A stretch of DNA of 36,596 nt. Source: Aggregatilineales bacterium. GTDB taxonomy: Bacteria; Chloroflexota; Anaerolineae; Aggregatilineales; Phototrophicaceae. The DNA lies in NCBI GenBank assembly GCA_029975765.1, contig JARKOK010000083.1, forward strand, positions 1 to 36,596. The letters run 5' to 3'. Shown piece after piece: positions 1,949 to 6,621 of this stretch (positions within the stretch are counted from its first letter, which is position 1; the number at the start of each line of letters is the position of its first letter). A program made the position numbers and the translations under genes. The notes under the pieces were generated by a model that worked only from the letters and a program-made list of their open reading frames with translations, did no database searches and was not told where the DNA came from.

Positions 1949-3553
1949 TTATTGTGAGTAGTAGATACGTGCCGGGTACTTAATGCCGGTCAGGAATGTG
2001 CCGTTAATCTCAGCCGCTTCCAGGTTCAGATCGGAGCGATAGACGTAAACACCGATAGGCTGGAAGATCGGGATCATCGGCAGGTCTTGCCAGAGCAGGG
2101 CATCCGCTTCGCGGTAGATGGCATACCGCGCGTCGGGATCGGTTTCGGTACGCCCCTGCTGGAACAGGTCAATCACCGCCTGATTGTTGTAGGCGAAGAA
2201 ACCGGTTTCACTGGCGAGATAGTTACGATAGTGATCCGGTTCCGGCCCGAACAAGCCCCAGCCGCCCAGGAACGCATCATAGGGTTTCTCGACCGAGCTG
2301 TTCTCGTACAGTTCTTCGTTGATGATGGCCGTGTCCAGCGGTGTCAGATCAACCTTCACGCCGAGTGCCTGCCAGTTGTCATACACAATCGGCGCGATGC
2401 CCTGCATGAGCGACCACGAACCCAGATAAATGACCCGCAGTGACAGTTCCGTCCCATCTTTATCCAGGATGCCGTTGCCATCGCTGTCAGTCCAACCGGC
2501 TTCAGCCAGCAGTTGTTTGGCTTCATCGGGGTTGAAAGGATACTGGGTATTGCGCCCCGCCTCATAGACGAAGACTGACTTGTTGAACACCGAGTCGGCC
2601 AGAACGCCGTTGCCGGCAGCCACCGCGTCAATGACCGCCTGGCGATTCAGGCCGATAGCTAAGGCACGACGAACCGCCGGATCGCTGACCGGCGCGCTTT
2701 GTACGTTGAAACCAACATACCGCATCAGATCACGCGGCGCCTTGGTAATGGCAAAATTGGGATTATCCTGGAACGGCGTCAGGTCTGCCCCGTCAATCCG
2801 GGCAAAATCAACCTCACCGGCCAGCAGGGCATTCGCCACGTTATTCACACCCTCGACGAAGCGCACGACGATGCGGTCAATGCAGGGCGCGCCGCGCCAG
2901 TAATCAGGGTTGGCTTCCAGAATGACGTTTTCGCCCGTATTCCAGGCGGCAAACTTGAACGGCCCGGTGGTGATGGGCGCGGTGTTATAGGGAGCATCAA
3001 TCATGTTCAGGCTGTCAAAAACATGCGCGGGAACAATCGGGATGCCCAGCGCCGTCAGAACCGTCGCGTCGGGCTGCTTGAGAATAACCTTGAAGGTATG
3101 GTCATCCACCACTTCAAACTGGAAGGGTTCGCCATTTTGCAGCAGATTGGATCGCCAGTCAATCGCGTTTTCTTCCAGCAGCACGGCGTTATAGGTGAAC
3201 AGAACATCTTCGGCAGTAAAGGGTTCACCATCATGCCACTTTACCCCCTGCCGCAAATTGAAGGTATATTCCAGGTTATCGTCGGACACCGTCCAGCTTT
3301 CGGCCAGCGCGGGTTCGATCTCATCACCCCAGTTTTCGCCGCCCAGAATCAGGGGTTCGGCCATAAAAGTGACAACTGATAGACTGTCGCCATCGTTGGC
3401 GTACAGGCCGCTCAGCGTGCGCGGGTCAGCATTCGACGTGACGACCATCGTCCCGCCGGTTTGCGGGCAGGTGAAAGTGTCATCCTGAGCTACGGTCACG
3501 GTTGCCGCTGTCAGCAGCAGCAGGCAGATTAGCAATAAACGCAGGTGTTTCAT
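1949..3553 (-). CDS. ABC transporter substrate-binding protein, peptide/nickel/dipeptide type (SBP_bac_5)
   Basis: Signal peptide; LAESWTVSDDNLEYTFNLRQGVKWHDGEPFTAEDVLFTYN signature. Confidence 0.93.
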   Translation of the reverse strand: MKHLRLLLICLLLLTAATVTVAQDDTFTCPQTGGTMVVTSNADPRTLSGLYANDGDSLSVVTFMAEPLILGGENWGDEIEPALAESWTVSDDNLEYTFNLRQGVKWHDGEPFTAEDVLFTYNAVLLEENAIDWRSNLLQNGEPFQFEVVDDHTFKVILKQPDATVLTALGIPIVPAHVFDSLNMIDAPYNTAPITTGPFKFAAWNTGENVILEANPDYWRGAPCIDRIVVRFVEGVNNVANALLAGEVDFARIDGADLTPFQDNPNFAITKAPRDLMRYVGFNVQSAPVSDPAVRRALAIGLNRQAVIDAVAAGNGVLADSVFNKSVFVYEAGRNTQYPFNPDEAKQLLAEAGWTDSDGNGILDKDGTELSLRVIYLGSWSLMQGIAPIVYDNWQALGVKVDLTPLDTAIINEELYENSSVEKPYDAFLGGWGLFGPEPDHYRNYLASETGFFAYNNQAVIDLFQQGRTETDPDARYAIYREADALLWQDLPMIPIFQPIGVYVYRSDLNLEAAEINGTFLTGIKYPARIYYSQ

Positions 3554-3689
3554 CACAGGTTTCCTCGTAGAGCTAAAAATAAAATGGTAGCGGCGATAAG
3601 ATGAGATGAAGCGTCAGTGACACCCATCTCCTGAGACAAGGGAGGTTAACGTTTAGTCACAACACAACATCGGACATCTCCAATCTGTC

Positions 3690-4571
3690 TTAACGGCGCG
3701 TGCGCGGATCAAGCGCATCCCGCAAGCCATCGCCCACAAAATTGAACGACAGCACAATCAATGAGATCGTCAGGCCGGGCACGACCCACATCCACCAGGC
3801 GGTGCGTACCCACTGCTGCGCCTCTTGCAGCATATTACCAAGGCTGGCATTGGGGGGCGGCACGCCCAACCCCAGGAAACTTAAAGCCGATTCGGTCAGG
3901 ATCGCGTTCGGAATTGCCAGCGTGGTAGCGACCACAATCGCCGAGAGGGTATTAGGCAGCAGATACATACCCATCAGGCGCAGATGGGATGCGCCAATCG
4001 CCTGCGCCGCGATCACAAATTCCTGCTGCTTCAGGGACAGAATTTGCGCGCGTACCAGACGCGCGACCGTCATCCAGTTGAGTACGCCAATCGCCACGAT
4101 CAGCGCGGGTAGCGAACCACCCAGAATACCGGCCACGATCAGCAGCAGCATAAACGCAGGCACCGCCAGAAAAACATCGGTGATCCGCATCAGCAGATTA
4201 TCGAGCCAACCGCCCACATAACCGGCCAGCGTGCCAACCGTCACGCCGATAATGAGTTGAAACAGTACGGCTGTCACGCCGACAAATAACGAAATCCGCA
4301 GGCTGCTGATTGTACGCGACAGATAATCCCGTCCATAATTGTCGGTGCCGAACGCATACAGCGTCGAGGGTGGCTGCGGCCTGCCCCCGGCATAGTCGGT
4401 ATTGGTCGCGTTGGGGTCATACGGCATAACCTGGGCTGCGAAGATCGCTGTCAGGCTGAATATGAGCAGCAGCCCCAGGCTCAAAATTGCCAGTTTATGC
4501 CGCCGGAAGGTGCGCCAGATGAGCGCGCGATACCCCGGTCGGGTTTCCAGTGAAGCGAATTTAGTGGTCAT
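3690..4571 (-). CDS. ABC transporter permease, DppC type
   Basis: MTTKFAS...; FGTDNYGRDYLSR and EALSFLGLG-like (ESALSFLGLGVPPPNASLGNML) motifs; start overlaps upstream permease stop. Confidence 0.92.
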   Translation of the reverse strand: MTTKFASLETRPGYRALIWRTFRRHKLAILSLGLLLIFSLTAIFAAQVMPYDPNATNTDYAGGRPQPPSTLYAFGTDNYGRDYLSRTISSLRISLFVGVTAVLFQLIIGVTVGTLAGYVGGWLDNLLMRITDVFLAVPAFMLLLIVAGILGGSLPALIVAIGVLNWMTVARLVRAQILSLKQQEFVIAAQAIGASHLRLMGMYLLPNTLSAIVVATTLAIPNAILTESALSFLGLGVPPPNASLGNMLQEAQQWVRTAWWMWVVPGLTISLIVLSFNFVGDGLRDALDPRTRR

Positions 4572-5532
4572 AACGAATCCGAGGGTCGGCCCAGGCATAC
4601 GCAATATCAGCCAGCAGGTTGCCAAACACAATCAGCAGAGCGGATAACATCGTAACGGCCATGATGACCGGATAATCGCGCCCGGAGACAGCCGTCACCC
4701 CCAACCGGCCAATCCCCGGCCAGCTAAAAATCGTCTCCGTGATATAGGCTCCCGTTACGATATTCGGTACGGAAATGCCCACCAGCGTAATCATGGGAAT
4801 CAAGGCATTTCGTAAGGCATGAACGAGCATAATCCGCCGCCGCTTAAGCCCTTTGCCATGCGCGGTGCGCATGTAGTCCTCATTCAGCACATCCAGCAGC
4901 GCCGAACGTTGATAACGTGACAGTGAGGCAATCTGCGCCAGGCTCAGCACGATGGTGGGTAAGATCATGTGATGCGCTACATCCAGAAAAGCGGCAAAAC
5001 CCTCGTAGGTCTCGCGCACCGACGTCATGCCAGACGCAGGAAACCAGCCCAGTTGAATGGCAAACACCTGCAATAACAGCAGCGCCGACCAGAAAACCGG
5101 AATGGAAATACCAACGAGCGCCAGCGTGCTGACGACATAATCCAGCAGCGTATAACGGTACAGCGCCGAAATCACACCGATTGGCACCGCCAGCACCAGC
5201 GCCAGAATCAGGGCGCTGCCGCTGAGCAGCAGCGTATTGGGCAGGCGGTCGCCTACTTCCAGACTCACCGGGCGGCGCGTCCGCATCGAATAACCCAGAT
5301 CGCCGCTTAAGGTGCGTGTCAGCCAGCCCACATACCGCACATAGACCGGTTGATCCAACCCCAGACTGGTACGAACCTGCTCAATGTAGGCCGGGTCAGT
5401 CCCGCGTTCCGGGTCAATGTACATTTGCGCAGCATCTCCCGGCGCAATCTCAACGATACCGAACGTCAGCACCGAGATAATCAAAAGCAGCGGGATGGCC
5501 TGCACCATGCGCCGTAACACATACTGTCGCAT
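4561..5532 (-). CDS. ABC transporter permease, DppB type
   Basis: MRQYVLRRMVQAIPLLLIISVLTFG; PGDAA; YITETIFSWPGIGRLGV. Confidence 0.92.
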   Translation of the reverse strand: MRQYVLRRMVQAIPLLLIISVLTFGIVEIAPGDAAQMYIDPERGTDPAYIEQVRTSLGLDQPVYVRYVGWLTRTLSGDLGYSMRTRRPVSLEVGDRLPNTLLLSGSALILALVLAVPIGVISALYRYTLLDYVVSTLALVGISIPVFWSALLLLQVFAIQLGWFPASGMTSVRETYEGFAAFLDVAHHMILPTIVLSLAQIASLSRYQRSALLDVLNEDYMRTAHGKGLKRRRIMLVHALRNALIPMITLVGISVPNIVTGAYITETIFSWPGIGRLGVTAVSGRDYPVIMAVTMLSALLIVFGNLLADIAYAWADPRIRYDH

Positions 5533-5567: not shown

Positions 5568-5590
5568 AAAAAATGCCCTGTAACCAGGGC
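5568..5590 (-). terminator. Intrinsic terminator/attenuator-like hairpin in leader of the dppB-type gene
   Basis: Minus strand GCCCTG-GTTA-CAGGGC-A-TTTTTT, about 40 nt upstream of ATG 5532. Confidence 0.7.
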
Positions 5591-5723
5591 TGAATCTCAT
5601 GAAACCAGCAGCGGCTTACCCCGGTTATGTCGTCTGATAGAATTTCCAACCGCAGGATTTAAGGGTGTTGCCGGATACCAGCATTTTGATAAAATTCCGC
5701 CACGTCTGCATCCATGTTGGCGG

Positions 5724-5753
5724 AGTATAGCAACGCCAGCCATGAGATGTCAA
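5724..5753 (-). promoter_or_regulatory. Sigma70-like promoter for the Dpp-type ABC operon
   Basis: Minus strand TTGACA (5753-5748) N18 TATACT (5729-5724). Confidence 0.65.
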
Positions 5754-5775: not shown

Positions 5776-6621
5776 ATGCTGGCAGCGGCGGATCATGACT
5801 ACATTGCAGACATCCTGGCGTGGCGACAAACAGAAGAAGATCGCCTGCGGGCCGAGGACGGCTGGCTTACGGTCGTCGGGTTGGAATGGATGCATGAAGG
5901 GGGAAATACAGTTGGCAGCGCCGCCGACCGTGATGTTGTCCTGCCAGTGCCGGATTTACCTGATCAAGTAGGCATAATCCATCTGGACAATGGTCATGTC
6001 ACGCTCGACGTGAGCACCGATGTACCCGTATTGGTGGATGGAGTCCCGGTTAAGCAGGCGGTGCTGCACGTTCAGCAGCCCAAAACGCCACCATCATATG
6101 TCAAAATCGGCTCAGTGACCTTTTTTGTCATCCAGCGCGGCGAGCGTTATGCTGTTCGTATCCGTGACGCCAACAGCGTCGCCCGCCGCACCTTTGGTGG
6201 ACGCTGCTGGTTTCCCGTTGACCCGGCTTATCGGGTAACGGCCCGGTTCACCGCGCACACCTCGGAACGTACCCTGGAGGTTGAGACTCCGCTGGGTACG
6301 CGGGTACAGCTTGTCAGTCCCGGAATGCTGGATTTTGAACTAAGGGGACAATCCCTGCGCGTTGACGCCTTCTGGGATGGCGACACCGAACACGGCCAGC
6401 AGTTGTGGCTGATCTTCCGGGATGCCACCAGCGGCCTTTCCACCTATGGCGCATCACGCTTTCTGAAAATCCCTCTGTTTGCTGACGGCACAGCCCTGAT
6501 AGATTTCAACCGTGCTTATCATCCACCCTGCGCTTTCACCCATTACGCCACCTGCCCCCTGCCCCCCCGCCAGAATATACTTCCTCTGGCCGTTGAGGCC
6601 GGTGAAAGGCTGCCTTCTTAA
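5776..6621 (+). CDS. DUF1684 domain-containing protein
   Basis: WRQTEEDRLRAEDGWLTVVGLEWM...; DFNRAYHPPCAFTHYATCPLPPRQNILPLAVEAGE. Confidence 0.9.
   Translation: MLAAADHDYIADILAWRQTEEDRLRAEDGWLTVVGLEWMHEGGNTVGSAADRDVVLPVPDLPDQVGIIHLDNGHVTLDVSTDVPVLVDGVPVKQAVLHVQQPKTPPSYVKIGSVTFFVIQRGERYAVRIRDANSVARRTFGGRCWFPVDPAYRVTARFTAHTSERTLEVETPLGTRVQLVSPGMLDFELRGQSLRVDAFWDGDTEHGQQLWLIFRDATSGLSTYGASRFLKIPLFADGTALIDFNRAYHPPCAFTHYATCPLPPRQNILPLAVEAGERLPS

Follow-up and report, generated by a model that had tools for sequence, protein, structure and literature searches.

How is a peptide-type ABC importer operon controlled when an intrinsic terminator stands between its promoter and its first gene? This question is raised by one locus in the window, the whole 36,596-nucleotide stretch of DNA analysed here, whose close relatives are recorded as Aggregatilineales/Anaerolineae, Chloroflexota. 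A sequence-only reading had proposed that the segment ahead of this operon is a transcription-attenuation leader, possibly with riboswitch-like control. The locus comprises the following features.

Positions 5776–6621, plus strand: divergent DUF1684 gene, the same neighbour as in the orthologous loci L038 and L034.
Positions 5724–5753, minus strand: promoter TTGACA-N18-TATACT, 11/12 matches, extended -10.
Positions 5575–5590, minus strand: intrinsic terminator GCCCUG-GUUA-CAGGGC, then AUUUUUU to 5568.
Positions 4561–5532, minus strand: dppB/oppB-type permease (P0001), first gene of the operon, start ATG 5532.
Positions 3690–4631, minus strand: dppC/oppC-type permease (longest open reading frame).
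Positions 1949–3556, minus strand: family 5 solute-binding protein.

We examined the promoter and the terminator, both of which were found on the minus strand where the sequence-only reading had placed them (5753–5724 and 5590–5568). The promoter consists of TTGACA (5753–5748) and TATACT (5729–5724), separated by an 18-nt spacer with TG preceding the second hexamer, and the transcript was predicted to start at ~5717. Between this promoter and the dppB-type gene lies a leader of ~185 nt. The terminator stem has just 6 bp, and the distance from the terminator to the dppB start (5532) is 36 nt. Promoters with 11/12 matches occurred twice in the window, compared with 0.15 expected from shuffles of the whole window, and strong terminators also occurred twice, compared with 0.083 expected from dinucleotide shuffles. 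A looser terminator scan yielded 13 in 12 kb against 10.6 expected, indicating that only the strong class is informative. Upstream, the minus strand contains nothing for the terminator to serve, as only the divergent DUF1684 gene is located there. The locus thus has a promoter, a leader and an intrinsic terminator ahead of a first gene, as in an attenuator.

Attenuators of the Escherichia coli trp/his type combine a leader peptide with four RNA regions, in which the pairings 1:2 and 3:4 exclude 2:3, and an intrinsic terminator before the first gene. The window leader could be divided in the same manner.

Positions 5647–5657, minus strand: region 1, UCCUGCGGUUG, able to pair with region 2 (from the MFE of the full leader).
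Positions 5618–5628, minus strand: region 2, AUAACCGGGGU, antiterminator 5′ arm, beginning at the uORF stop codon.
Positions 5581–5590, minus strand: region 3, GCCCUGGUUA, antiterminator 3′ arm, equivalent to the terminator 5′ arm plus loop.
Positions 5568–5580, minus strand: region 4, CAGGGC, terminator 3′ arm (5580–5575), plus the A-U6 tract to 5568.

The 10-bp pairing of UAACCGGGGU (5627–5618) with region 3 (5590–5581), described earlier, was reproduced. Two features had been overlooked: a short ORF has its stop codon precisely where region 2 begins, and a 5′ segment (5657–5647) is able to pair with region 2. In predicted folds, an RNA ending at the terminator loop paired region 2 with region 3, while the full-length leader paired region 1 with region 2 and formed the terminator (3:4). 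Formation of the antiterminator (2:3) is therefore predicted to exclude the terminator, and region 1, added to 2:3 and 3:4, completes the classical four-region scheme in these models. The 2:3 duplex was calculated at -16.2 kcal/mol (p = 0.008 against the shuffled upstream leader); taken as a folded hairpin, it reached p = 0.053 against shuffles. The 1:2 pairing alone was no stronger than in shuffles (p = 0.15), and the leader as a whole was more stable than shuffles (z = -2.24). By eye, the 5′ part of the leader resembled tRNA-Leu, a candidate that was rejected when ARAGORN and Rfam gave nothing.

Two overlapping candidate ORFs were found in the leader.

Positions 5625–5711, minus strand: candidate leader ORF MQTWRNFIKMLVSGNTLKSCGWKFYQTT, frame 2, 28 codons (putatively translated).
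Positions 5659–5715, minus strand: competing leader ORF MDADVAEFYQNAGIRQHP, frame 1, leaderless position (putatively translated).

The geometry of the frame-2 ORF fits ribosome control of regions 1 and 2. It starts at ATG 5711, with no Shine-Dalgarno sequence ahead, and its stop codon UAA (5627–5625) lies inside region 2. Among its 28 codons are one Cys and two Trp codons, without a run of any codon. The sole Cys codon (UGC, 5654–5652) is in region 1, and the second Trp codon (UGG, 5648–5646) lies at the edge of region 1, which includes most of it. One Cys in 28 codons is not an enrichment (p = 0.48), and the window uORF therefore lacks the regulatory-codon enrichment of a typical attenuator. 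The Cys codon is positioned 24 nt before region 2, within the range of Cys cluster-to-region 2 distances in the other leaders described below.

From established attenuator logic, we infer uORF translation, stalling and the sensed amino acid as follows. RNA polymerase would start at ~5717, and a ribosome would translate the 28-codon uORF. On reaching the stop codon at 5627–5625, the ribosome would cover region 2, so that 3:4 would pair and transcription would end at 5568. If the charged tRNA were lacking, the ribosome would stall at the region 1 codons UGC GGU UGG and mask region 1; region 2 would then be free to pair with region 3, no terminator would form, and the operon would be read. Without translation, 1:2 and 3:4 would form and transcription would end.

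We then compared the locus with orthologous operons. The orthologous permease was present in six of the 98 genomes of the family, the window's own included. In four of the five other orthologs (L003/L038, L032/L041, L004/L035 and L005/L037), dppB is preceded by a promoter, a short uORF and a terminator, and the uORFs (MNAFRMLITHPNQSCCPVTTCRCEGISCRLPLVCSVR, MHKNTFVIPMPIHPTHAVKSVCCASTSYSCGGMPVSLISGS, MKLAVMRPMQCLNACRMCPTHTTVMFARMAKASPTE and MTTLRCKIMLPNMCCMCRTTHIEFCAGGCNG, respectively) each contain a small Cys cluster. Relative to shuffles of their own codons, Cys was enriched in L038 (p = 0.042) and L037 (p = 0.005), and not in the other two. The uORFs of L038 and L041 look leaderless, starting 7–8 nt past the -10 box. 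The window uORF showed weak similarity to the ortholog peptides (p = 0.07). The remaining ortholog, L034, had no clear terminator; one of its open frames encodes CVCC, without an in-frame start codon nearby.

In the orthologs, regions 2 were located at or near the uORF end. Antiterminators paired by eye in L038 (GAAGGGAUUUC with GAAGCCCCUUC) and L041 (GUGGAGGGAUG with CACCCCUUCAC) had the same design with changed bases, and a duplex search recovered the core of both (p = 0.039 and p = 0.005, respectively). The same search supported a 2:3 pairing in L037 (p = 0.019); the value for L035 was p = 0.18. The leader DNA of the orthologous operons could not be aligned with that of the window, and because MAFFT did not align the five dpp leaders reliably, we assessed complementarity with a swap test instead of alignment-based pair counts. 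A DNA search of 60 relatives found no close homolog of the window leader for judging codon conservation. It also led us to reject the idea that the leader is a repeated element, as a single copy was present in its own genome and none in the 60 relatives.

To extend the comparison beyond dpp, we looked for genes preceded by a Cys-rich uORF and then a terminator; the scan covered 400 kb of genome G024, the ortholog loci, the window and 20 contigs from the genome of the window (G000). Among 60 candidate terminators in all, one clear new match was found, and it was in the window's own genome.

Contig G000:C500, positions 2500–2663 (locus L147): cysK leader with a Cys-run uORF and a terminator.

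Its uORF, MKMYAAYPTCCCPCCDIITESSCGVIRRR (...TCCCPCCD...), is followed by the terminator and, 15 nt further on, by a cysteine synthase gene (TIGR01139, 477 bits against a cut-off of 351). A Cys-rich uORF and a terminator preceded cysK in 20 of 23 readable loci of the order and in seven of 20 outside it, counted among best matches (from L158–L186) rather than a random sample. The Cys motifs varied (CCCPCC, ACCPCC, ACCCC, CICMC, CMCSC and CACIC), and the uORFs of L158–L160 and L162 start 6–7 nt past the -10 box. The cysK leaders thus carry what defines a cysteine leader-peptide attenuator, namely a Cys-run uORF and a terminator before a cysteine gene. In single cysK leaders, antiterminator p-values were not significant because the terminator arms are long; the putative cysK antiterminators are indicated only by their common position near the uORF stop and by the pooled test below. 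Judged from sequence, the Aggregatilineales cysK leaders are apparently cysteine-responsive attenuators, and the evidence that cysK of this lineage is under cysteine attenuation is convincing; this attenuator is clearer than the window's own. At L172, a SAM-I/IV riboswitch (3178–3299) was observed ~0.7 kb downstream of the cysK match, besides the Cys attenuator before cysK.

For the swap test, which used 21 leaders, the sequence surrounding each uORF stop was matched in silico against the terminator arms of all leaders. Own pairs were better than swapped pairs across all 21 leaders (p = 0.012) and in the five dpp leaders alone (p = 0.027), and not significantly so in the cysK leaders alone (p = 0.15); these values ignore kinship among the leaders. 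The window's own pair ranked first of 21 both ways.

These results suggest that the window leader is probably a ribosome-mediated transcription attenuator of the permease/binding-protein operon. Attenuation of a Dpp/Opp-type operon, as first proposed, is supported by how rare the parts are, by structures that exclude one another and by four orthologs having the same layout. The window leader resembles the E. coli trp/his type in having a leader ORF, regions 1–4 and an intrinsic terminator before the first gene, but differs in that it has no regulatory codon run, the uORF stop marks the beginning of its region 2, and its target is a peptide-type ABC importer.

We weighed three alternatives. The leader could be a decayed relic of an ancestral Cys attenuator that has lost its Cys run, in which case the terminator would simply impose a constant reduction in expression, or a short terminated RNA would be made from the promoter. 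The single Cys codon, the competing starts and the 6-bp terminator stem agree with such decay, and since the assembly is fragmented (594 contigs), a base error in the uORF is also possible. However, of the 21 leaders the window has the best-matched 2:3 complementarity, and the 36 nt before dppB leave no room for a second promoter, so readthrough must matter. We regard a relic as rather unlikely. Translation of the leaderless frame-1 ORF instead seems quite improbable. A ribosome at its stop codon (5661–5659), which lies 1–2 nt ahead of region 1, would cover region 1 and favour antitermination, and the signal read by the switch would be translation initiation, or release at that stop, and no particular amino acid. 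Its ATG 5715, in a different frame from ATG 5711, is 8 nt past the -10 box, similar to the starts in L038, L041 and the four cysK leaders mentioned above, but its peptide contains no repeated residue and is unlike the ortholog peptides. It also counts against this alternative that we know of no attenuator in which a ribosome at a stop codon masks region 1 in this way.

T-box, SAM and other amino-acid riboswitches also choose between an antiterminator and a terminator before amino-acid genes. The 'riboswitch-like' part of the original proposal did not hold. An Rfam 15 scan, which had been suggested as a check, gave no riboswitch or T-box match in the window at gathering or permissive thresholds, nor any match in the ortholog dpp leaders, which sets these leaders apart from such riboswitches. 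No conserved sequence or shared aptamer was found across the five dpp leaders; short ORFs are present instead, Cys-rich in several orthologs, and with region 2 at or near the uORF end, this is the geometry of ribosome-mediated leader-peptide attenuation rather than of a ligand riboswitch. A riboswitch in the window leader is unlikely, and an aptamer or RNA-binding protein acting on 5717–5600 to decide between 2:3 and 3:4 without translation is very improbable. The 2:3/3:4 alternative by itself is typical of riboswitches too, and the leader is more stable than shuffles (z = -2.24), but Cys-rich ORFs occupy the aptamer's place in the orthologs.

Returning to the attenuator, we considered which amino acid may be sensed. 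Because of the Cys clusters in their uORFs, the relatives' dpp leaders probably sense Cys-tRNA. For the window leader, cysteine is plausible as the leading candidate signal, given the orthology, the cysK Cys attenuator in the same genome and the Cys codon position. As its uORF is not Cys-enriched, we did not place the window leader in the cysteine class. We tentatively propose, as a doubtful but possible extension, an Anaerolineae cysteine regulon under leader-peptide transcription attenuators that include intrinsic terminators and in some cases have leaderless uORFs. The regulon would comprise cysK as well as an ABC operon importing peptides or thiols; the window leader would be a minimal Cys-tRNA sensor with a single Cys codon, and the importer would serve sulfur scavenging. 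If the same signal controls cysK and the importer, the substrate may be cysteine, cystine, glutathione or Cys-containing peptides. Only uncultured bacteria are known to carry this importer. For the ABC operon, the closest NCBIfam equivalogs (Opp4, Nik and Gsi) all scored under cut-off, so no substrate was assigned. The operon (1949–5532) comprises two permeases and a binding protein without adjoining ATPase genes, which means that the ATPases must come from elsewhere. In families f3 and f4, an OsmC-family-like (thiol peroxidase-like) gene, named from its sequence, heads the same permease operon in place of the leader; it lies just upstream of the permease in L006–L008, L036, L040, L066 and L114–L117. 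This gene may connect the importer with thiol chemistry.

Cysteine leader peptides are a known kind of regulator. In Actinobacteria, cys genes and operons are preceded by short uORFs with cysteine codon runs and no conserved terminator hairpin (Seliverstov et al. 2005, PMC1262725). The Anaerolineae cysK leaders likewise have Cys-run short uORFs before cysteine genes, but unlike the Actinobacterial ones, the Anaerolineae leaders have strong intrinsic terminators, and the window uORF has no Cys run. Their Cys-rich leader peptides with intrinsic terminators thus supply the element missing in the Actinobacterial cases, and this coupling appears to be what is new. Mycobacterial polycysteine leaderless uORFs (Canestrari et al. 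2020), according to papers citing that work, sense cysteine by ribosome speed and act by translation attenuation (PMC9031893, PMC13236596). Several Anaerolineae uORFs are similarly Cys-rich and start 6–8 nt past the -10 box; unlike control in the mycobacterial cases as so described, control here is expected at transcription. Little seems to have been written on amino-acid regulation at the RNA level in Chloroflexota: our literature search, with most subscription papers outside its reach, found no paper on such leaders in this phylum, nor the intrinsic-terminator combination in Anaerolineae or the link to a peptide-type ABC operon.

Two further elements were observed in the window. The hairpin at 1912–1940, between convergent operons, is part of a palindromic element, GGGTYTCAGACCCTCCCCTGC, that is dispersed over the genome in ten exact copies, compared with none for the reversed control pattern; these lie in the window, at G000:C500 2399–2419 and on eight other contigs. 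The other 11/12 promoter (TTGACAAACTAATGTAATTAGTTTATAGT, 456–484) contains the palindrome ACTAATgtaATTAGT; it is followed by genes for a metallo-beta-lactamase-fold protein and a TetR-type regulator (491–1802), which probably form an autoregulated operon.
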